Source: Bradyrhizobium sp. NDS-1
Lineage (GTDB): Bacteria > Pseudomonadota > Alphaproteobacteria > Rhizobiales > Xanthobacteraceae
DNA length: 64,000 bases
Assembly: GCF_032918005.1 (NCBI RefSeq)
Contig: NZ_CP136628.1
Span: 4,759,501 to 4,823,500 of the forward strand
Direction: 5' to 3'
The position numbers and the translations under genes are program-made. Positions within the stretch are counted from its first letter, which is position 1. The number at the start of each line of letters is the position of its first letter. Below the pieces are notes generated by a model, which made no database searches, was not told where the DNA came from, and saw only the letters and a list, made by a program, of their open reading frames with translations. Positions 52,221-62,612 of the stretch are shown piece after piece.

Positions 52221-52453
52221 CACTGATCTCCTTGGTTGCATGGTCCAAGGACGATGGAGCGCACGGCGATCCGACAAGGACAAGCGGATCTTAGATGAGG
52301 CAAACCGTCGCGAGCCGGACCTCGTCCTGCCGAGCAGCTTAGCGAGAGAGCAAGACGAAAAAGTGCCCGGAACTGGCTGGGGAACCTGGACCCTACGCCA
52401 GTACTTCAGATGGCCTGGAAATACCGCGAAAACAGCCCTATATCGATGCCTGC

Positions 52454-52490
52454 GTTGGGGGCGCCCCGTTGGGGGCACCGTTAGGGGCAG
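52454..52490 (+). repeat. Three short tandem repeats in front of the integrase gene
   Basis: GTTGGGGGC (52454), GTTGGGGGC (52468) and GTTAGGGGC (52480) recur at 14- and 12-base steps immediately before the recombinase start. They could be arm-type binding sites for the integrase or part of the attachment region. Without the other island end this cannot be decided. Confidence 0.4.
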
Positions 52491-52495
52491 GCGAA

Positions 52496-53884
52496 GTGAA
52501 TGTGATTTTGCGAGCGGAAAAATGTGGCGGTGATCGGCGCTACCTGACCCAGCCCCGGGGCGAAGGAACGACTTGGTATGCCGTCGCTGAGCTCCCTAGG
52601 ACGCTGCGGCGGGCCCTCGGCAAGAAGCGGCTCCTGAAGTCCCTAGAGACGACAGACCTCCGGGTGGCCCGTATAGCTCGCTGGAACGCCGTTGCGGATT
52701 TGAAGTCCGAGATCGCCAAACACCGGACGCCCGGACCCGAGGATCAAGACCCGCTTCTTTTGGAAGCCATGGCTCTCCGGGAGGAATTCGTGCGGGCCGA
52801 TGCCGCGCGGCGAAATGACCTCATGTATCAGATCACGGACCGGGCCGAAGAAATCGATCTGGTAGCCGGCGGGACCCGTGACGACTACGAGCCTTTTGCA
52901 GAACCCCGGGCGGCCACCAAGCAGGCCACCGACTTCGTTCCGTTGGCGTCCGCAAAGGTCACTCCCGCCGACCTCTACGTTGAACGGTGGCTTGCGGCCT
53001 CGACCTATAGCGAGCGCACCAAGGCTGACGCCCGTACGGCGCTTGCGCAGTTCAAGGACTGGTGCACGAAGGCGAGCCAAGGCTTCTTCATCGAGACCAC
53101 GACCGATAGGGTTGCCGCCGATTTCCGTGATGAGGCGTTCGTCAAGGCTGGCGTGCACTTCAAGACGGCCAACAAGAAGCTGTCCGCCCTAAGGCAATAC
53201 TGGACGTGGTTAGAGAAGAGCTTCGGCGTGAAGTCGAATCCTTGGATGCGCAAGTCGCTTCCCAAGGCCAAGGCACACAGGATCGCCCCGGACGGTCCGA
53301 TGGGTCCCGAGCGGCCGTTCACCGATGATGAGGTTCGCATCCTTCTCGGCGGCCCGGCAGACACCGACATGGCCAACGCCATGAGGATTTCAGCCCTTTC
53401 AGGAATGCGTCTCGATGAGATCGGCCAGCTTCGCGTCGGTGATTGCCGCGACAACACGTTCAGTGTCACTCGCAGCAAATCCGCAGCGGGCGTGCGAACC
53501 ATTCCGATTCATTCGGTGCTGCGGCCGATGATCACGAAACTTGTCGGCACGCGCGATGCGACGACCTACTTGTTCCCCGACTTTCAGGACACCGGCTGGG
53601 ATGGCAACCGGACCATGGCTCTCTCGAAGCGGTTCACTTACTATCGCAAGAAACTTGGCGTGCACGACAAAAGACCAGGCGCACGTAGGTCCAAGGTCAA
53701 CTTTCATAGCTTTAGGCGCTGGTTCGCGACGAAGGCTGAGGATGCGGGCCACCGGGAGAACGTCGTGGCGGACATTATGGGCCACGAGAGCCAGGTCGGA
53801 ATCACCTTTGGGCTGTACTCCAACGCCCAGCTGAAGCGCCTGAAGAAGGCTTGCATAGAGTCCGTCAAGTTGCCGGCCCTCTAA
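52496..53884 (+). CDS. Tyrosine recombinase/site-specific integrase
   Basis: This protein of about 462 aa has an N-terminal DUF6538-like segment (RYLTQPRGEGTTWYAVAEL), a SAM-like core-binding domain (about 160-250) and a catalytic domain. The catalytic residues are Arg in SGMRLDEIGQL, H-x-x-R in FHSFRRWFAT, His in MGHES and the nucleophile Tyr in GLYSNAQ. It integrates and excises the mobile island that follows. The start is uncertain: GTG 52496 has AGGGGCAGGCGAA upstream, while an in-frame TTG lies at 52469 and another GTG at 52502. It is oriented into the island. No tRNA is adjacent. Confidence 0.9.
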   Translation: MNVILRAEKCGGDRRYLTQPRGEGTTWYAVAELPRTLRRALGKKRLLKSLETTDLRVARIARWNAVADLKSEIAKHRTPGPEDQDPLLLEAMALREEFVRADAARRNDLMYQITDRAEEIDLVAGGTRDDYEPFAEPRAATKQATDFVPLASAKVTPADLYVERWLAASTYSERTKADARTALAQFKDWCTKASQGFFIETTTDRVAADFRDEAFVKAGVHFKTANKKLSALRQYWTWLEKSFGVKSNPWMRKSLPKAKAHRIAPDGPMGPERPFTDDEVRILLGGPADTDMANAMRISALSGMRLDEIGQLRVGDCRDNTFSVTRSKSAAGVRTIPIHSVLRPMITKLVGTRDATTYLFPDFQDTGWDGNRTMALSKRFTYYRKKLGVHDKRPGARRSKVNFHSFRRWFATKAEDAGHRENVVADIMGHESQVGITFGLYSNAQLKRLKKACIESVKLPAL

Positions 53885-54071: not shown

Positions 54072-54701
54072 ATGGCGCGTCAAACGAAGAGAAAGCTGAC
54101 GGAGACTACAGCCAAGAACGACTCGACAGCCGACGATGCCATTAGGTTCTATCGAGCCAACGAAAAGCCATACGGGCCTTTCAGCAATTTGTACCGGCGC
54201 CCGGTCGAGTTTGAGGGCGTAGTTTATCCAACATCTGAGCACGCTTATCAGGCCGGAAAAGCCCTAAAGCCGGCTGTGAGAGATTGGATACTGGCTGCTC
54301 CCACTCCAGCTCTCGCAGCGATGGCGGCCCATGGCCTGTACACCTGGGACATCGTGCCCGATTGGTCGAAAGTTAAATTCGATCGGATGCGACGAGTCTT
54401 GAAGGCGAAATTCGAACAGCACCCTGACCTCGCTGAGCTCCTCCTCTCGACAGGTTCGAAGCGACTTGTGGAGGCGGGAACTGTAAATAACGCAGTAAAT
54501 CGTCTTTGGGGCGAAGTGGCCGGAAAAGGAATGAATATGTTGGGCGTGATGCTGATGGAGATTCGGGATGAATTGAAGAAGGGCAGCGTCTCCCCGGCTA
54601 TATCTTCCCCGCGAGCACCTTCGCAGCGAAAAGCAGCCCGCAAAGATCGCATCAGCCGACCGCCAGCCGCCTCGAAGCGGAAGAAAGCCAAGCGGGCATG
54701 A
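54072..54701 (+). CDS. NADAR family protein (YbiA-like N-glycosidase) with basic tail
   Basis: This 209-aa protein has the full NADAR pattern: GPFSNLYRRPVEFEGVVYPTSEHAYQAGKA, then the helical KVKFDRMRRVLKAKFEQHPDL (in part) and RLWGEVAGKGMNMLGVMLMEIRDEL. YbiA-type enzymes cleave N-glycosidic bonds of riboflavin intermediates, and other NADAR proteins remove ADP-ribose from guanine in DNA. A Lys/Arg/Ser-rich tail of about 40 residues is unusual and may bind nucleic acid. ATG 54072 follows AGAGGGATGTG. It overlaps the next gene by four bases (ATGA) and opens the island operon. Confidence 0.85.
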   Translation: MARQTKRKLTETTAKNDSTADDAIRFYRANEKPYGPFSNLYRRPVEFEGVVYPTSEHAYQAGKALKPAVRDWILAAPTPALAAMAAHGLYTWDIVPDWSKVKFDRMRRVLKAKFEQHPDLAELLLSTGSKRLVEAGTVNNAVNRLWGEVAGKGMNMLGVMLMEIRDELKKGSVSPAISSPRAPSQRKAARKDRISRPPAASKRKKAKRA

Positions 54702-56632
54702 CGCCTTACGAAGAGGAGCTGGCTAACCTTGCGTCGACCGTCGACAAGGCGGGCATAACGGACATCGACGGATTGAAGGCTGCAATCGAGGGAGCAAGCG
54801 AGGCCAGCCTAATAGCCATTGGGTCCGGCGGGTCATTCACTGTTGCGTCGCTCCTCTGCAGTTTGCACGAAGCTTATACCGGGCGCGTATCGCGAGCTGT
54901 GACGCCCTTGGAACTAATCTGTAATCCGACATTAGCCTCCACCAGTCCGATATTTATCATCTCCGCCGAAGGCAAAAACCCAGACGTAATCGAAGCGCTA
55001 CAAAGGGCCCGCGAGCACAGTTCGCGTTCAGTCCACGTAGTTACAAATCGGAGTGAAAGCCCATTGATGGCGCGCGTCTCTGAGCTCCACGACGTTACGC
55101 CCCACGTATTTCCCTTAGCCGACAAAGATGGCTACCTAGCAACCAACAGTCTCGTATTTGACGCTGCGCTAGTTGCGCGAGCTTACGGAGAGCTGGACCG
55201 GCAAGGGCGGAAGATCCAATTTAATGTCGACCAACTTCAGTTCGACGATCTCCCTCTTCGGGACTGGATCGAGAATTCGAAGCAGTTCGCCAAAGAGGTG
55301 GCGTCACGGCGCAGTTTGATTATCGTCTTCTCTCCTCACCTCCGCCCTATCGCGGAAGATTTGGAATCTAAGTTTTCAGAATCTGCGCTCCTCTTTTGCC
55401 AGCTAGCCGACTTTCGATCGTTCGCGCACGGCCGCCATTTATGGTTGACCGAACGGCCAAACGATTCTGCTCTGCTTGTGTTGACCGAGCCGGCCGTTAC
55501 TAGGCTTTGGGATGATATGCATACGAAAGTGCCAACCCAGGTTCCACACTTCCGCCTTGCGCTACCTGGTGCGGAGCCTAAAGACCTCATAGCAGGCCTG
55601 ATAGCCGGCATGCATCTCGTGTCTTCAGTTGCAAATGCATCCCAAAGAGACATCGCTCGCCCAACAGTCTCCGATCTTGGTCGACAGTTGTACTATGCGG
55701 ACTTGACCTCGCTTATACCGCCGCCGCTCGAAGCCGGCCTGCGAGGCGAGCATTCAAAGTATGAAGTTTTGGGCGCCCATTGGCCGTCGCCTCGATCCAG
55801 CGGAACTATTCGACGGGCGAGGCAAGCCACAGAAGAGGCGTTCAACTCGCAGCGCTTTCGTTCAATCGTGTTCGACTACGATGGCACTCTGTGTAGCTCC
55901 AACAATCGCGACCTGCAGCCTCCACCACTTATTGTGTCCCAGCTGGAGCGCCTCACACGCGCTGAGATAATCGTCGGCATCGCATCCGGGCGTGGTGGCT
56001 CAATTAGGGATCACCTGCGATCGCTGCTTGCCCCCGAGCTTTGGCCATTCATTCGTCTGGGCCTATACAACGGGGGCTGGATCGGCGAGCTCGGTCAAGA
56101 GCCGCAGACAACAGAACCACTGAGCGAATTCCTTATCCATGCTAAGCGCCTGATCCTTGGGCTAAAGTCTCTCGGAGTACCAATCGAGGAAGCGAGGACA
56201 ACGGCCCCATATCAACTGAGCATTAGGTTCCGAAACGGCGTCCGCACCGAGGACATGTGGTTTGTGATTGTTGATACTTTCAAGCAAGCCGGCCTCGATA
56301 CAAGTACGATCGTACGGAGCAAGCATTCCATCGATGTGCTGTCGCAAGATGTCAGCAAATCACACTTGGTGGCGAGCATTGTTCGAGAACAGTCTGTCGA
56401 TCCGTATGAAGTTGTCACCATGGGCGACCTAGGTGCGTGGCCGGGCAACGACGCCTCACTGCTCCAGCATCGTTTTTCGCTGAGCGTAGACCTTCCTTCT
56501 CGTAGAATTGACCGCGGCTGGAAGTTAGCTCCACGCTACAAGCGGGACGTCGATGCAACTCTTTGGTATCTAGAGCGCCTAGAAATCGAGCCTGGTCACC
56601 GCCGCTTTTATTTCGATTTGTCGCGAGACTGA
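54698..56632 (+). CDS. SIS domain-HAD phosphatase fusion protein
   Basis: This 644-aa protein is a two-part fusion. Residues 1-345 resemble double-SIS sugar isomerase/deaminase proteins, with SLIAIGSGGSFTVASLL (IGSGGS at 41-46) and FRSFAHGRHLWL in the second half. Residues 385-625 are a Cof/sucrose-phosphatase-like HAD domain with nucleophile FDYDGTLCS (392-400), SGR (430-432), Lys554 and GDLGAWPGND (576-585). The catalytic set looks complete, so it should bind a phosphosugar and remove a phosphate. The start overlaps the NADAR stop and its own stop overlaps the next start (TGATG). GC is lower than in the chromosomal genes. Confidence 0.82.
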   Translation: MTPYEEELANLASTVDKAGITDIDGLKAAIEGASEASLIAIGSGGSFTVASLLCSLHEAYTGRVSRAVTPLELICNPTLASTSPIFIISAEGKNPDVIEALQRAREHSSRSVHVVTNRSESPLMARVSELHDVTPHVFPLADKDGYLATNSLVFDAALVARAYGELDRQGRKIQFNVDQLQFDDLPLRDWIENSKQFAKEVASRRSLIIVFSPHLRPIAEDLESKFSESALLFCQLADFRSFAHGRHLWLTERPNDSALLVLTEPAVTRLWDDMHTKVPTQVPHFRLALPGAEPKDLIAGLIAGMHLVSSVANASQRDIARPTVSDLGRQLYYADLTSLIPPPLEAGLRGEHSKYEVLGAHWPSPRSSGTIRRARQATEEAFNSQRFRSIVFDYDGTLCSSNNRDLQPPPLIVSQLERLTRAEIIVGIASGRGGSIRDHLRSLLAPELWPFIRLGLYNGGWIGELGQEPQTTEPLSEFLIHAKRLILGLKSLGVPIEEARTTAPYQLSIRFRNGVRTEDMWFVIVDTFKQAGLDTSTIVRSKHSIDVLSQDVSKSHLVASIVREQSVDPYEVVTMGDLGAWPGNDASLLQHRFSLSVDLPSRRIDRGWKLAPRYKRDVDATLWYLERLEIEPGHRRFYFDLSRD

Positions 56633-57771
56633 TGATGAAAGAAAAGATTGCACAGGAGCTGTTGGCCACGGTCATGGACTGGACCGATCAAGATTCTGTC
56701 TTGCAGCACAGTCTAAGTCTCCAGCTGCTAGCCGACTATAAGTATAATCATTATCAACGGTACGGTCCGGGCCAGCGTTTCATTGAGAGTTTAGCGCTCT
56801 GGCTGGACCAATTCGATAGGGCAGACCGCACCACGGCCCTGGAGTTCATCCAGAAGAAACTGATTTTTATATCTGAGCAAGAGATCGCCCATCTCGTAAC
56901 CATTGCCTATCCCGATGTGATTGTTCAAGAACGCCTTCGGCTTGTGGCAGAAGAGAGCCAGATCGCCCCCTTCAAAGTTGGGCAACTTATCCAACACCCC
57001 CGGTTCGAGCGTCTTGGGCAAAAATCGTTATACCTCGGTTTAAGCGATGGCGCCCATACGAACGATCTTCGCCGAGCAAGCAATGGCGCTATCAGCAATG
57101 AGCAAATCTGGCAGGCCTACGAGCTAGGCGAAACAAAGGCCGAAGATATGCTTGCCAAACTCCGAAAGTCGCTGCGGAAGTCAGCGGAAGCAGCGGGAGA
57201 ACCTCCCCGCGACAACGTAGACGCGGAGCGGTTCAATCTTGTGTGGCTTGTCGACGACTTTTCCGGAAGTGGAAACACGTACATCCGATTCGAGGAAAAA
57301 GAAGGACAACGACGGTTCGCGGGAAAGATACAGAAGATTTACGATATGGTCTTGGATGGCGGACTGGTTAACCCGAGCTACTACGAAATCTATTTGCTCC
57401 TGTACGTCGCCACCCGCCAAGCTATTGATCACATCGAATACTGGTCCGAGCGCTTTACATCGGAGCGAGGACTAAAGCCATTACGAGTTCGAGTTCTCTG
57501 CCCCATTGAACGTGATGCGTCGCTAACTCCCACCACCGATCCGGCAGTGATGGCGATGCTCGCGAAGAGTGGATACTACGACGATCGGGCGTCAGATTCC
57601 CACATTGCAATCGGCGGCACGAAAGATGCGCGCTACGGTTTCGCAAAGTGTGCCTTGCCGCTCGTCCTATCCCACAACACTCCTAACAACAGCGTCTATG
57701 CGCTATGGGGACCCGAAGAGTTTAATTTTGTTGGACTCTTCCCGAGGGTAAGCAGGCATCGGGCAAACTAA
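56632..57771 (+). CDS. Phosphoribosyltransferase-like protein (PRTase-CE-like)
   Basis: This 379-aa protein carries LVWLVDDFSGSGNTYIRF at 203-220. This is the type I phosphoribosyltransferase PRPP loop (hhhDD-x-x-x-SGxT), preceded by a 200-residue helical N-terminal domain. Beyond the loop lie a long insertion and a C-terminal strand region with VRVLCPIERDASL. It resembles the phosphoribosyltransferase-like domains that comparative surveys have linked to bacterial conflict systems, as I recall them; this has not been checked. It could transfer or remove a phosphoribosyl group. It starts at ATG 56632 within the previous stop and ends in a TAATG overlap with the ATPase gene. Confidence 0.72.
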   Translation: MMKEKIAQELLATVMDWTDQDSVLQHSLSLQLLADYKYNHYQRYGPGQRFIESLALWLDQFDRADRTTALEFIQKKLIFISEQEIAHLVTIAYPDVIVQERLRLVAEESQIAPFKVGQLIQHPRFERLGQKSLYLGLSDGAHTNDLRRASNGAISNEQIWQAYELGETKAEDMLAKLRKSLRKSAEAAGEPPRDNVDAERFNLVWLVDDFSGSGNTYIRFEEKEGQRRFAGKIQKIYDMVLDGGLVNPSYYEIYLLLYVATRQAIDHIEYWSERFTSERGLKPLRVRVLCPIERDASLTPTTDPAVMAMLAKSGYYDDRASDSHIAIGGTKDARYGFAKCALPLVLSHNTPNNSVYALWGPEEFNFVGLFPRVSRHRAN

Positions 57772-59693
57772 TGGCTTATCGAGCAAACCCATTTCTTGAA
57801 AGGATGTCGGAGCGTACGACCTCGGATCAGGAGTTCGTTCAAATGTTCGCGCCAAAAGTGCTGGAGCGACTGAATGAGGACTGTCTTCGGGGTGGGGTAC
57901 ACATTTTCCGGAGCCCACCTGGTGGCGGAAAGACGACGATACTTCGGGCATTCACCCCAAACGCACTTCGTGCATTTTGGCACGGCGGGCCCATGGGGGT
58001 TGATACTTATCGTCAGCTTGTCGACCGTGGCGTAATAGATGCCGAAACTGGACCGCAGACGCTAGGCGTGTTTCTTTCCTGCGCTTCTGGATATGCCGAT
58101 CTCCCGCCCGGTGCCTCTGCAATTAGTGAAGGCATGTTCCGCGCCCTCCTAGACTGCCGCATCGTACTTCGCAGTCTCCGCAGTCTAGGCGAACTGGTTG
58201 GGTCTACCTCCACCCAAACCATGGAAGCTCTTCAGCTACATTACGATGATGAGGCGCTCCAAGACCTTGGCTCGATCCCGTTACACCAATCCGCAGCAGA
58301 AATGATCCGATGGGCGGAGCAGCGCGAGCGCGAGGTCTATTCTCAATTGGATTCTCTGACATACGTGCCGGGAGCCGCCGCGCCGGCAGATGTCCGGTTT
58401 GAATCCTTGTTGTGGCTGCAGTCCGTGCGCTTCGTCCATGAGGGGCGCGTCGTTGCACCCAAACGCCTTTTGATGATCGATGATATCCAGAAATTGCGTA
58501 AGACGCAGCGTTCTCTGCTGATTGACGAGTTCGTTACGTTGAGGCCGCAAATGCCGGTGTGGCTTGCTGGGAGAAGCGTTGCATTTGGCGAAGAATTTTT
58601 ATCGCAAGGAGTGCGCCCTGGTCGGGACGTTAATTTTTACTCGTTGGAGGACATGTGGGGTGGTCGCAGCGGTCAGTTCGTGGCATTCGCTCAGAACATC
58701 CTAGACAGGCGCTTTGCACTCCAATCAGTTGTACCCGGCAATACGTTCCAACAATACTTGGCGGAGGCCCTAGATCCGAAAGACGTGGAGTCGCTCTATC
58801 GAGAGGCTCGCGAACGCTTTGATCGAGGAACGGCACGAGTCAAACGAAATCCGAGATATGCGGAGTGGCTCGCCAAAGCTGTGTCGGGAGCCGCCGCTCA
58901 CAACTACGAAAACGCTATTGAGCTTTACACAACCAGAATCCTCATCGCACGCGACGAGGCCAACCGCCAGTTATCGCTCCAATTGGTTCCTCTGGCGCCA
59001 GAAGAATTTGACGATAGAGATAGTTCCGCTGTTAGAGCTGCAGCTGAGATTTTCATGAACTACGAGATAAAGACGCCCTACTACTTTGGCTTGGAGCGCC
59101 TTTGCGCCATGTCGACGAATAACGTCGAGGAGCTGCTCGCATTAGCAGCGGCCCTTTATGACGGAATGCGGGCGAAGCAGGCACTCCGTCGCCAAGGTGA
59201 GCCGTACCTTCTGCCACGTGAGCAAGAACGGCGGCTGAAGGACGTTGCGGCCAAGAAGATTGATTTCATTCCGCGCAACCATACAGAAGGGTTACTGGCT
59301 CAGCGCTTGCTAAATTCCATTGGTACATTTTGCAGGGATCGAACATTTGTCGTCAACGCACCGTACGCCCCCGGCGTTACGGGGATCAGGTTGTCTGCGT
59401 CGGAGATCATCAAGCTCCAGCGGATATCCAAGGCGTCTGGATCTGCGTTCACTGTAATCAAGCGGGTGATCGACGAATGCGTAGCCGAAAATCTCTTGGT
59501 CGCACGAGATAGTAGCGCCAGCACCTCCCGGGAGGGTGGGACCGTCTTCTATCTAAATCGAACGCTATGCTCGCATTTCGGGCTGCCGCTGCAATACGGC
59601 GGCTGGCAGGATGTCACAGTGCAACAGTTGGCCGAGTGGATCGAAACCGGCCTGCAGCCTGCCCGAGGGTTAACCTTGGAGGCTGCACTGTGA
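57771..59693 (+). CDS. ORC/CDC6-like AAA+ P-loop ATPase
   Basis: This 640-aa protein has Walker A RSPPGGGKTTILR (residues 47-59), Walker B RLLMIDDIQKLRK (232-244) and a sensor-like PVWLAGRS segment near 270, in the layout of ORC/CDC6-type ATPases of bacterial defence operons. A long helical middle and a C-terminal region with a likely winged helix (SASEIIKLQRISKASGSAFT) follow, fitting DNA or nucleoprotein binding. It probably acts as the NTP-driven sensor or switch. The start overlaps the PRTase-like stop (TAATG) and its stop overlaps the next start (GTGA). Confidence 0.78.
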   Translation: MAYRANPFLERMSERTTSDQEFVQMFAPKVLERLNEDCLRGGVHIFRSPPGGGKTTILRAFTPNALRAFWHGGPMGVDTYRQLVDRGVIDAETGPQTLGVFLSCASGYADLPPGASAISEGMFRALLDCRIVLRSLRSLGELVGSTSTQTMEALQLHYDDEALQDLGSIPLHQSAAEMIRWAEQREREVYSQLDSLTYVPGAAAPADVRFESLLWLQSVRFVHEGRVVAPKRLLMIDDIQKLRKTQRSLLIDEFVTLRPQMPVWLAGRSVAFGEEFLSQGVRPGRDVNFYSLEDMWGGRSGQFVAFAQNILDRRFALQSVVPGNTFQQYLAEALDPKDVESLYREARERFDRGTARVKRNPRYAEWLAKAVSGAAAHNYENAIELYTTRILIARDEANRQLSLQLVPLAPEEFDDRDSSAVRAAAEIFMNYEIKTPYYFGLERLCAMSTNNVEELLALAAALYDGMRAKQALRRQGEPYLLPREQERRLKDVAAKKIDFIPRNHTEGLLAQRLLNSIGTFCRDRTFVVNAPYAPGVTGIRLSASEIIKLQRISKASGSAFTVIKRVIDECVAENLLVARDSSASTSREGGTVFYLNRTLCSHFGLPLQYGGWQDVTVQQLAEWIETGLQPARGLTLEAAL

Positions 59694-60901
59694 TTTGGGA
59701 AAATTATGTCTTTCGAAGAGGTCCCGATGTCGAGGAACTTTGGGATCAAATGTTCACCGAACGAAAGCAGGTAGGCCGGCCGACACGGTTGCTGTTCATT
59801 ACCGGTAGAGGATTTGATGTTCGCGCGACAAACGTCCTAGCGCGGTTTGTAGACAGATTGAAGGCTTCGGAATGCGAAGTTGAGCGGGCACACCTGCTGT
59901 TCGTTGGTTTTACGAGCTACCATTTATCAAACGATTTGCGGGTGCAGACTCAGAAAAACGAAGCTGAGATGCTGGCTTATTTCGAAGGTGTTGGCACCTC
60001 GCACACGGTGATGATTGGTGGCGCCGCGGAGGGAGAGGACGACATCAATTCGAACATCGCCCTCCGGCGGGGAGCTGACGAGATACTAAAGTCGGTAACG
60101 GACCAGACGGACATTGTCCTAGACGTGAGTTCTTTGCCTCGGGTAGCTTACGTGACCATTCTTCTCTCATTGCTTGCCCGCATCATTCCCGAGGGCAGCA
60201 AGAATGGCGGATTGTTCGCAAACGGGGTTTCATTGCAGGTCCTTGTTGCGGAAGATGCACAACTAGACAGCAAGATAAGTTCGGAAGATCCCAGCAACGA
60301 TTTGACGTTGATTCCTGGATACTCGGAAGCTCTTCAATCGGAGTCGCAGCAAGAGGAGCCAATGGTATGGTTTCCCATTCTTGGTGAGAACCGCTTGGCT
60401 CAACTCAGGAAGATACAAGCCAGTATTCGTGAATTTGCAGAGATTTGCCCGATCTTGCCCCACCCGTCGCGGAACCCCCGTCGCGGTGATGAGCTTTTGT
60501 TGGAATATGACAGCGTGTTGTTCACTCAGCGGGCGACGCCGATTGGCAACGTGTTCTATGTGAACGAAACACATCCCTTCGAGGTTTATCGTCAGCTGTT
60601 AGGAGCCATGCAGCGTTTTCGAAAGTCTCTCGGTCTAATCGGTAGATGCCGTCTGGTGGTGACCCCGCTGGCCAGCAAGTTAATCACCGTCGGAAGCGCA
60701 TTGGCCTGCTTCGAAATGAAACTTATTTCCATGGACTACAAATCCAGCGTGGCGATCCCGTACGCGGAACCAAAACGATATGAAGCGGACCTGGAGCTGG
60801 TGTTACAATCGCGTCCCGTCATTTCGGCGCTCTTGTTGACCGGCGACGCATATCAGACGGACATTTGTTCTGAAGCCCCGGTCGCCGCCCCTCCGAGCTA
60901 A
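59690..60901 (+). CDS. Unrecognised protein, last gene of the island operon
   Basis: This 403-aa protein starts at GTG 59690 behind GGAGGCTGCACT, overlapping the ATPase stop by four bases. The N-terminal 160 residues look like an alpha/beta Rossmann-type domain with RLLFITGRGFDVRA (33-46), RAHLLFVGFTSYHL and DIVLDVSSLPRVAY (141-154). The rest is mixed, with MVWFPILGENRLAQLRK and RCRLVVTPLASKLITVGSALACFEMKL. No signal peptide or TM helix is seen. I do not recognise the family. Its fixed place at the end of the operon makes it a candidate effector or ligand sensor. Codon usage matches the other island genes. Confidence 0.7.
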   Translation: MIWENYVFRRGPDVEELWDQMFTERKQVGRPTRLLFITGRGFDVRATNVLARFVDRLKASECEVERAHLLFVGFTSYHLSNDLRVQTQKNEAEMLAYFEGVGTSHTVMIGGAAEGEDDINSNIALRRGADEILKSVTDQTDIVLDVSSLPRVAYVTILLSLLARIIPEGSKNGGLFANGVSLQVLVAEDAQLDSKISSEDPSNDLTLIPGYSEALQSESQQEEPMVWFPILGENRLAQLRKIQASIREFAEICPILPHPSRNPRRGDELLLEYDSVLFTQRATPIGNVFYVNETHPFEVYRQLLGAMQRFRKSLGLIGRCRLVVTPLASKLITVGSALACFEMKLISMDYKSSVAIPYAEPKRYEADLELVLQSRPVISALLLTGDAYQTDICSEAPVAAPPS

Positions 60902-61349: not shown

Positions 61350-62612
61350 TTAAGCGGGAAAGCCGCAAAAGTTGGCAGGCCGAGTTTCGCCCGCTGCTTC
61401 AAATATCTTCTCGAAGAACCGCAACAGAAACTTATCGATGGCACTTTGCTCGATCACGTTGAGCAGCGCTTCGTGCTCGACCGAGTCCTTAATCATCATG
61501 GCGATACCGTTCCCGGGACCTCCGCTCCAGGCAATCCGTCTGCCTTTAACGCCAACGGCACCCGCCACCATCTTGATAGGCACTTCGAAACCATACTCGC
61601 GGGTCATGCAGTCAATGAAATACGGGACGTATTGCCGGTAAAGCCGTTGGACCTGGTCGATAAACAGGTATTGGTACTGGCCGCTCTCGCCATGCCGAAG
61701 GATGTCAGCGTTGAGGCACCAGATTTCACCGTTGTGGAAATGCTGGGCGATGTTGTCGATGTTGTTAGTGTTCCCCGCGGCTTCACACATGGCGGCGCCC
61801 CACTCATTGGCCAGCCAGGAATAGCTGCCGCCGAGCGAGAATGAGGCGTATCGGCTCGCGGTCTGATTCAGGATTGCATGGGACAGAAGCTTGGATAAAT
61901 CCTTTGTCGGACTTAGCTTGAGATAGAATACTTTCTCAAACGGCATCACGGGCTGGGAGCCATCCCTGCGCGAACCCAAGGGTACATGCTCGGCAAACCA
62001 GAACGCGGGCGGCCGGACCGGGACCACCTCTTCAAATTTGGGTGCCGCCGCGGCTGTCTGCTGCTTCAGGAATGGCCTAAGTCCTTCGACGAAAGCATTG
62101 GTAAGCTTCTCAGAGGCAGCCTTGATATCTTCTTTCGAGGCTCCCTCGGGCAGATTGTATGTGAAGGGCCAGCGCTTCTGCTGGATATCGAACGGCAATG
62201 AGTCCACTGAGCCGTAAGCCAGATTGAGCACCCCGATGCAACGCTCCCAGCCTCTCGCCTTCAGCGCATAGCCCAGCTCGATCGCGACGTTCGGGTTCAT
62301 CACCGGACGCAGCCCGACCTCGTTACCTTCCTTATCCTTTTTGGAGGGCGACGTGGCTACCGGGGTCAGGTCAGCGACAAAGGCCGCGGACATATCGATC
62401 TTTGCAAAGATTGCGGCCGCGATGTCGGGCATGCCTGAGAGACCTTTGGTGTCATGGTCCAGCTCCAGGTTGACGCGACGATCAGCTTCCGATGGCTCCT
62501 CAACGTCCTCTGCCTGCTTAAGCTTCTTGATGGCAGCCTTGAGCGCATCCCGCACGAAATAATGCGAGATTTTGGGATCGTAATCCGAGAGCCATGACCA
62601 GAATATCTTCAC
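61350..62612 (-). CDS. Protein with TIR/nucleoside-deoxyribosyltransferase-like N-terminal domain
   Basis: This 420-aa protein begins KIFWSWLSDYDPKISHYFVRDAL and has MPDIAAAIFAKIDMSAAFVADLTP (in part) and NPNVAIELGYALKARGW (106-122). That is the pattern of TIR-like and nucleoside 2-deoxyribosyltransferase-like domains in bacterial defence proteins, with E112 the candidate catalytic Glu. The C-terminal 230 residues (VFYLKLSPTKDLSKLLSHAIL, MVAGAVGVKGRRIAW and others) are not recognised and may be a sensor. The start is GTG 62612. It converges on the five-gene operon and may be an independent NAD+ or nucleotide-hydrolysing defence gene. Confidence 0.65.
   Translation of the reverse strand: MKIFWSWLSDYDPKISHYFVRDALKAAIKKLKQAEDVEEPSEADRRVNLELDHDTKGLSGMPDIAAAIFAKIDMSAAFVADLTPVATSPSKKDKEGNEVGLRPVMNPNVAIELGYALKARGWERCIGVLNLAYGSVDSLPFDIQQKRWPFTYNLPEGASKEDIKAASEKLTNAFVEGLRPFLKQQTAAAAPKFEEVVPVRPPAFWFAEHVPLGSRRDGSQPVMPFEKVFYLKLSPTKDLSKLLSHAILNQTASRYASFSLGGSYSWLANEWGAAMCEAAGNTNNIDNIAQHFHNGEIWCLNADILRHGESGQYQYLFIDQVQRLYRQYVPYFIDCMTREYGFEVPIKMVAGAVGVKGRRIAWSGGPGNGIAMMIKDSVEHEALLNVIEQSAIDKFLLRFFEKIFEAAGETRPANFCGFPA

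Follow-up and report, generated by a model that had tools for sequence, protein, structure and literature searches.

Three-gene sets in which the gene for a CE effector is combined with genes for an ORC-CDC6-like ATPase and a CARF6 protein (PF24389, PF24390 and PF24391; PADLOC CARF6) have reportedly been described by Nicastro et al. in 2023 and by Makarova et al. in 2020 (Nucleic Acids Res.). Among sugar enzymes, FraD and FrlD are PfkB proteins, while FraB and FrlB are double-SIS proteins, FraB belonging to the NagB-II/GlmS class.

We analyzed a stretch of 64,000 nucleotides from Bradyrhizobium sp. NDS-1 (NZ_CP136628.1, positions 4,759,501–4,823,500, forward strand), termed the window. It contains an operon of five plus-strand open reading frames (54072–60901) for a NADAR protein, a SIS-HAD fusion, PRTase-CE, an ORC-CDC6-like ATPase and CARF6, here g1 to g5. 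Judged by their sequences, g3 to g5 form one trio, whose proteins and gene order are those of the sets above. Related trios occur without sugar enzymes and with interchangeable effectors, so that the family models place this one in an already known kind; what the present operon adds to it is SIS-HAD together with NADAR or PfkB. Among the matches listed in our literature searches no paper described the five-gene set, which may be published elsewhere, and none gave a ligand or reaction for the CARF6/ORC-like ATPase/PRTase-CE core. The literature compared comprised portions of PMC13092281, PMC9503650, PMC7824862, PMC4012209, PMC9609667 and PMC4941530.

Operon layout and island location

The NADAR gene g1 (54072–54701; an alternative GTG start three bases earlier is possible) is followed by g2 (54698–56632), which encodes a double-SIS phosphosugar isomerase/deaminase-type domain fused to a HAD-IIB phosphatase. 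Next come g3 (56632–57771) for PRTase-CE, a predicted nucleotide-attacking effector, g4 (57771–59693) for the ORC-CDC6-like AAA+ ATPase, and g5 (59690–60901, GTG start) for a CARF6-family protein, a predicted ligand sensor. All four junctions overlap when read from the plus strand: ATGA (54698–54701), TGATG (56630–56634), TAATG (57769–57773) and GTGA (59690–59693). An earlier sequence-only reading had given frames and junctions exactly as they are present, and took them to mean that the five proteins are probably made in fixed proportions. The spacing was found to vary, several relatives of the same gene order having gaps of 2–22 bases. As the overlaps are not kept in all of these relatives, fixed proportions are not established, and the idea was rejected.

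The operon is located directly behind a tyrosine-recombinase integrase gene (52469–53884, plus strand; Phage_integrase PF00589 1.5e-11, DUF6538 1e-9) and in DNA of lower GC content, as had been proposed; GC falls from 0.60–0.67 over 1–54 kb to 0.53–0.56 over 54–64 kb. An attL-like direct repeat, TGGCTGGGGAACCTGGA, is found at 52374–52390 (plus strand) and equals the 3' end of tRNA-Gln. The second copy is located outside the window, at 74515–74531 in window numbering, where there is an intact tRNA-Gln(CTG). Genome G577 of the same species has one copy, within an intact tRNA-Gln sequence, and lacks the island, which is established as an insertion of about 22.1 kb at tRNA-Gln.

The effector, ATPase and CARF6 trio and its relatives

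The PRTase-like and ORC/CDC6-like assignments of the sequence-only reading agree with Pfam. g3 matched PF24390 (PRTase-CE) at 6.7e-17 (62.6 bits, cut-off 27), and D209, F210 and G214 of its PRPP-loop DDFSGSG were kept in 27/27 loci. g4 matched PF24389 (ORC-CDC6-like) at 1.2e-17 (64.3 bits, cut-off 27), which is weaker than in two other trios (1e-126 in L046, 3e-93 in L047); its Walker A K54, Walker B D237 and R268 were likewise kept in all 27. The fifth protein, previously called unrecognised, matched the PADLOC model PDLC01910 (CARF6) at E 2.2e-105, a model for which PADLOC gives no curated cut-off. The AlphaFold model of g5 (pLDDT 80.8) gave no convincing CARF fold match among the best 50 Foldseek matches; the top ones were unrelated proteins with TM ≤0.33 by query length, and the best relevant structure was Cap5 (SAVED) at rank 17 with TM 0.33. 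Sequence searches of the PDB with alignments of g3, g4 and g5 gave chance-level matches only.

g3 also matched the model for Type III-A retron effectors (PADLOC PRTase_III-A, 1.4e-16). Unlike in such a retron, no reverse transcriptase was found among the nine window proteins scanned, and the retron assignment was rejected.

We tabulated 31 loci, the window included, and 27 of them contained SIS-HAD together with the trio. These 27 core loci span Alphaproteobacteria, Betaproteobacteria and Actinomycetota, and all have a further sugar partner: NADAR in 9, PfkB in 10 and both in 8. The exact order NADAR, SIS-HAD, PRT, ORC, CARF was found in eight further loci (L003, L004, L005, L006, L050, L057, L058 and L087), counting L006, whose CARF frame has just 176 amino acids and stops about 90 bases short of where the contig ends. 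The arrangement therefore exceeds chance, and conserved gene content and linkage are established. The sequence-only reading had missed both the trio as a unit and PfkB as a frequent partner of SIS-HAD.

Unlinked homologues would have spoken for housekeeping genes, an explanation rejected on the conserved linkage; one case was found, in locus L073, among 18 plasmid records. A search for SIS-HAD in the class of genome G769 gave 0/360 genomes in a set without a positive control. Searches of phage records with g4, g2 and the PfkB of L011 found nothing, and one locus, L057, was matched in viral contigs.

Trios without sugar enzymes had varying effectors, namely PRTase-CE (L046), HD-CE (L047 and L049) or a calcineurin-like protein (L048), with the effector gene followed by the ORC-CDC6-like and CARF6 genes. 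Both HD-CE loci also had a C5 DNA methylase; it is adjacent in L047, and in L049 the distance is about 3.5 kb.

Two co-diverging modules are established by the contrast between r values, which is what counts as they come from differing subsets (27, 18, 17 and 8 loci) and as the permutation tests ignore shared ancestry and near-identical loci. The values were 0.96–0.97 within the trio and 0.95 for SIS-HAD with PfkB, against 0.80–0.85 for SIS-HAD with the trio and 0.63–0.70 for the trio with PfkB. NADAR co-diverged just loosely. Loci L067 and L069/L101 each have two divergent trios (PRT 36–37% identical in both; ORC 24% and CARF 28% in L067) alongside a single SIS-HAD/PfkB/NADAR set, and the modules are therefore separable.

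These observations bear on a reading in which NADAR or PfkB, SIS-HAD and the PRTase would together synthesise a second messenger of the sugar-nucleotide type, or detect a nucleoside modified by the phage, the signal being read by CARF6 and the ATPase, with the PRTase not the output. The position of a CARF-type sensor beside three to four small-molecule enzymes is in agreement with this, as is SIS-HAD/PfkB being a pair of its own that can accompany two trios. However, the trio occurs without SIS-HAD in L046–L049, so that its activation does not always depend on sugar enzymes, and the PRTase co-diverges more with the trio than with the sugar pair. We regard this reading as rather unlikely.

NADAR, SIS-HAD and PfkB

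g1 is a NADAR protein (PF08719, E 6e-27), as the sequence-only reading had it. Like YbiA-type NADAR proteins, which are N-glycosidases of riboflavin intermediates, it passes the YbiA-like equivalog model TIGR02464 (86.3 bits, cut-off 73.7); unlike them it is encoded in an operon and has a Lys/Arg-rich C-terminal tail. A profile of seven relatives found YbiA (2b3w, 1.5e-30) as the nearest solved structure by sequence, and residues E56, K63, N143, R144 and E148 were kept in 17/17 loci. Portions of PMC13092281 (DefensePredictor) present NADAR proteins as predicted or tested defence proteins. g1 has the NADAR domain in common with these, but its score of 63.7 against the anti-phage family NF053876 (DS32_2) is far under the cut-off of 240.

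The double-SIS part of g2 (54704–55639, plus strand, residues 3–314) was assigned by fold. Foldseek with the AlphaFold model (pLDDT 83.6) gave NagB-II, the GlmS isomerase domain and AgaS-type structures as the best matches (E values starting at 9.8e-12, target-length TM of up to 0.72), which confirms the double-SIS fold. The earlier SIS call thus stands on fold comparison but not on the Pfam SIS model, which scored 13.5 bits, below the 25-bit gathering score. E228 and H244, aligned with 2aml and kept in 27/27 loci, are spaced by 16 residues like E489 and H505 of E. coli GlmS (Met counted), which we take to be its catalytic residues. The match of this pair rests on the 2aml alignment and the spacing, because hhalign of the SIS-HAD profile to GlmS covered the first SIS half only, weakly (probability 1.9%). 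The earlier HAD call was right: the HAD-IIB part (55859–56575, plus strand, residues 388–626) passed TIGR01484 (49.5 bits, cut-off 41.8), and D393, D395, T397, K554 and D577 were kept in 27/27 loci. Across the operon, the family assignments and the conservation of catalytic residues are established.

Six PfkB proteins scanned matched named sugar-kinase models only below cut-off. The window clade had no PfkB in the stretches examined, and the window's genome had no close family member, only weak matches (best E 1.1e-6). One clade has NADAR but no PfkB, an indication that either can supply an equivalent sugar phosphate.

The PfkB and SIS-HAD pair resembles the fructosamine kinases and deglycases FraD/FraB and FrlD/FrlB, in which, as far as the compared sections go, a sugar kinase is paired with a sugar-phosphate enzyme. 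A part of PMC9609667 reports a common general acid and base for FraB and FrlB, to which the invariant E228/H244 pair of g2 can be likened; unlike in these enzymes, the SIS of g2 is fused to a HAD phosphatase.

PfkB and the PRTase might produce a phosphosugar adduct that is toxic and whose level is held down by SIS-HAD and NADAR; infection, by blocking its removal, would stop the cell. The co-divergence of SIS-HAD with PfkB and the double-SIS fold of g2, which is that of the class of FraB, agree with such an addiction. Sections of PMC4941530 supply a precedent, as Salmonella with FraD and without FraB accumulates bacteriostatic 6-phosphofructose-aspartate, and in a portion of PMC9503650 NADAR takes the place of Macro in DarT-DarG-like toxin-antitoxin systems. 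The missing PfkB in the window clade speaks against it, and we consider this guard function unlikely.

The likeness to FraB/FraD would also fit an intracellular salvage of Amadori-type or opine-like compounds in soil bacteria, with the trio hitch-hiking. Many loci are located on rhizobial and agrobacterial plasmids, and in L073 the trio-less SIS-HAD relative (564 amino acids) has a sugar ABC transporter as its neighbour. The operon of L058 is followed after 44 bases by an ABC-transporter cluster on the opposite strand, which fits this metabolic reading better. However, the L073 protein has no H-G-R-H stretch in its sequence, all 27 core loci contain the trio, and gaps inside their blocks are ≤0.53 kb, too short to hold a transporter, unlike in FraD/FraB-type systems. 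Catabolism is in our view highly improbable.

Defence neighbours and a proposed immune function

Neighbours were picked by eye at 13 loci, scanned without a background rate, and strong defence matches were found near four of them. These were GajA and GajB (L011) or GajA (L072) of Gabija, a type I methyltransferase, specificity subunit and PrrC (L057), and type III-B CRISPR with a GGDD Cas10 (L087/L100); L051 and L005 gave no strong defence match. A kinase-domain match to PD-T4-6 in L053 is maybe generic. The expected occurrence on islands and near defence genes was borne out for linkage (27 core loci) and for the tRNA-Gln island, and for defence neighbours it extends to these 4 of 13 loci.

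In L087/L100 the same five-gene operon is located 1.5 kb from cas6, cas2, RT-cas1, a 7-repeat array, cmr4, cmr3 and the GGDD cas10, as if CARF6 responded to cyclic oligoadenylate and the operon were an ancillary output of type III CRISPR. However, this is one of 13 scanned loci, a resolvase-like gene lies between operon and CRISPR locus, and the Cas10 palm model reached 21.7 bits in the window's genome (G000), under the cut-off of 27, with the control matched in 5/14 genomes. A CRISPR output is thus very unlikely.

We find it about an even call that the operon is a mobile abortive-infection-type immune system, in which CARF/ATPase-gated nucleotide attack is combined with a phosphosugar-processing arm. 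Membership in the CARF6/ORC/CE class of immune systems is probable. We infer the defence role, as well as the direction in which the effector acts, which sugar is involved and in what order the steps occur, and the division of labour among the five proteins is tentative. CARF6 would sense a nucleotide-type signal, and the ORC-CDC6-like ATPase would act as an ATP-dependent, possibly nucleic-acid-dependent, switch. PRTase-CE may then attack the N-glycosidic bond in the cell's nucleotides, by cleavage or transfer, which would stop phage replication. SIS-HAD, with NADAR here and PfkB elsewhere, would form a second module for handling the phosphosugar side. In it, NADAR or PfkB may yield a sugar phosphate, the double-SIS domain would isomerise or deglycosylate it, and the fused HAD phosphatase would take off the phosphate, making the attack irreversible or clearing a toxic phosphosugar. 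The sequence-only interpretation is partly supported. Its proposal that a modified nucleotide is made or removed has no direct support; a nucleotide-attacking PRTase-CE core with phosphosugar enzymes is better backed.

In a more speculative version, to which we give a low probability, the trio carries out CARF/ORC-gated phosphoribosyl transfer, and the isomerase-phosphatase, fed by NADAR or PfkB, either drains sugar phosphate, as an irreversible ribose-phosphate/nucleotide drain, or builds a sugar messenger read by CARF6. If true, CARF/ORC-gated phosphoribosyl transfer with a dedicated phosphosugar pathway would be a new class of immune chemistry.

The combination of a sensor-ATPase-nucleotide enzyme trio with sugar-phosphate enzymes recurs in distant bacteria. 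A predicted immune core is thereby tied to enzymes whose chemistry can be tested, and the sugar enzymes limit which substrates come into question. The equivalence of NADAR and PfkB as sugar-phosphate suppliers is a concrete biochemical prediction.

The operon and its island

The five open reading frames of the operon (54072-60901, + strand) and their four overlapping junctions, described in the sequence-only reading, were all present in the window sequence. Its lower-GC setting was also borne out: GC is 0.60-0.67 before a step at about 54 kb and 0.53-0.56 beyond it. Here g1 is classed as a YbiA-like NADAR, g3 as PRTase-CE (PRT) and g4 as ORC-CDC6-like (ORC), while g2 is a NagB-II/GlmS-class double-SIS fold fused to a HAD-IIB phosphatase (SIS-HAD). 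PADLOC assigns g5 to CARF6, a putative CARF assignment based on sequence profiles. A distant g5 orthologue at locus L053 gave further matches to CARF1-HEPN (1.7e-5), Csx1 (0.006) and CasR (0.008); no convincing structural match was found for the predicted g5 fold.

The same-species genome G577 matched the window at 99% as far as base 52390, where the match ended. When both chromosomes were followed further, it picked up again at 74515 (window numbering). The direct repeat TGGCTGGGGAACCTGGA is found twice, once at 52374-52390 and once at 74515-74531. An intact tRNA-Gln(CTG) at 74515-74588, beyond the window end, has the latter copy as its 3' end; ARAGORN found no tRNA genes in the 64-kb window. 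The empty site in G577 and the repeat pair at tRNA-Gln indicate that the operon is cargo of an integrase island of ~22.1 kb (integrase at 52469-53884). The same site was also empty in G768, with 86-95% identity beside the junction. A Bradyrhizobium liaoningense strain (L003) has 9.2 kb in common with the window. This segment comprises the integrase and the operon, its DNA is 94% identical, and the DNA behind it differs from that of the window. The island also encodes a 420 aa protein (61350-62612, - strand) that matched no Pfam, NCBIfam or PADLOC family.

Composition and conserved residues of related loci

We tabulated 31 loci, including the window's own copy. Four were incomplete: L007, L013 and L086 were cut by contig ends and L072 was broken. 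SIS-HAD, PRT, ORC and CARF were present in all remaining 27, counting L006 despite its short CARF frame (176 aa, located at a contig end) and L070 although the last ~50 SIS-HAD residues lie in another frame. Besides these genes, nine loci carried NADAR only, ten a PfkB kinase only and eight both; PfkB was called by Pfam in three loci and elsewhere by a profile built in this analysis, mostly also by record annotation. The nine NADAR-only loci make up the window clade, a single branch in the tree. Because gene order varies among clades, linkage has been kept through rearrangement. The 27 loci are not 27 independent cases, since they include near-identical pairs (window/L003, L011/L064), and completeness results partly from selection, as loci were found via ORC or CARF queries and via SIS-HAD queries.

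In four loci with both NADAR and PfkB (L066, L067, L069, L070) a divergent gene for a small HTH protein, possibly a dedicated regulator, lies beside NADAR; L072 has an unnamed small gene in the corresponding place.

Residues invariant in all 27 loci were E228 and H244 of SIS, D393, D395, T397, K554 and D577 of HAD, D209, F210 and G214 of PRT, and K54, D237 and R268 of ORC. NADAR E56, K63, N143, R144 and E148 were invariant in 17/17 loci, and PfkB D276 in 19 rows representing 18 loci (L011 twice). PRT D208 and HAD D585 were each found in 26/27. The 16-residue spacing of E228 and H244 in g2 is also that of the catalytic Glu and His of E. coli GlmS, which has a Lys three before the Glu. SIS K225 varies (K in 15, R in 5 and S in 7 of 27). 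The PfkB kinases (L011:9250-10356 and relatives) contain a CPxCG insertion and, in some, a C-terminal CPAC tail. Cys135 was present in 18/19 rows and Cys138 in 12/19, and the cysteines perhaps form a metal site.

Distribution and neighbourhood

The system is rare and patchy in distribution. With the window's own genome counted each time, the ORC query was positive in 2/60 relatives, the CARF query in 3/385 genomes of the class and the SIS-HAD profile in 5/377 genomes of the order. The SIS-HAD profile also matched 2/48 genomes in the class of G462 and none of 360 in that of G769. Six of the seven SIS-HAD-positive genomes (order plus class of G462) held SIS-HAD with all of PRT, ORC and CARF; the seventh, G601, has a 4-kb contig with CARF, SIS-HAD and PfkB. 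An ORC-CDC6-like match over the cut-off was found in 14/398 genomes; 12 were inspected (G545 and G765 left out), and SIS-HAD lay near the match in four (the window's genome, G785, G603 and G462). SIS-HAD also matched in 18 plasmid records, of which 16 were inspected: the PRT-ORC-CARF trio was present in 15 (broken in L072) and absent in L073, where the match covers 35% of the query. In the two further records an ORC match lies about 1.2 kb from the SIS-HAD match. The SIS-HAD relative of L073 (8074-9765) lacks the H-G-R-H stretch and stands alone next to a sugar ABC transporter.

Neighbouring genes, picked by eye at 13 loci, were scanned with PADLOC. Strong defence matches were found at four: GajA and GajB (L011), GajA (L072), a type I methyltransferase, specificity subunit and PrrC (L057), and a type III-B CRISPR with GGDD Cas10 (L087/L100). 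In the last case, genome G828 (L087:2789-19503, L100:461-3981), a NADAR-type five-gene operon lies 1.5 kb from the CRISPR locus, which contains Cas6, Cas2, an RT-Cas1 fusion, a 7-repeat array, Cmr1, Cmr3, Cmr4 and the Cas10. L053 gave a match to PD-T4-6 (9e-51) that involves a kinase domain and could be generic. Weak matches were to E1-like (L064), caspase (L071) and patatin (L069) proteins, with short ones at L059 and L066. PADLOC gave nothing firm for the window's two downstream neighbours, and an HsdR-N-like protein is encoded further along its island. The scanned neighbours at L051 and L005 had no PADLOC defence match, and the ABC-transporter cluster immediately behind the operon at L058 counts against a defence-only setting.

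Two modules

Co-divergence was assessed as the correlation of pairwise distances over 27 loci (17 for NADAR, 18 for PfkB). Correlations were highest within PRT-ORC-CARF (r 0.96-0.97) and between SIS-HAD and PfkB (r 0.95); trio members gave 0.80-0.85 with SIS-HAD and 0.63-0.70 with PfkB. NADAR reached 0.36-0.43 with SIS-HAD and the trio members and 0.75 with PfkB (8 loci), the latter a level reached in 13/500 shuffles. L067 (4764-17019) and L069/L101 each carry two divergent trios and one SIS-HAD/PfkB/NADAR set, the second trio of L069 being recognised from PRT and gene sizes. Together, the correlations and double-trio loci argue that the trio behaves as one unit and SIS-HAD plus PfkB as another. 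At L048 (7412-11867) a calcineurin-like phosphoesterase accompanies ORC-CDC6-like and CARF6 genes, a third effector type on the same core.

The trio is already known at the family-model level. Since it is found without sugar enzymes, its switching does not always depend on them. The sugar module (SIS-HAD with PfkB and/or NADAR) would probably process the effector's product or a phosphosugar common to both. For FraD/FraB, growth can stop when the sugar kinase is present without its partner enzyme (PMC4941530). In the literature that was searched, no description of the extended set of trio and sugar enzymes was found.
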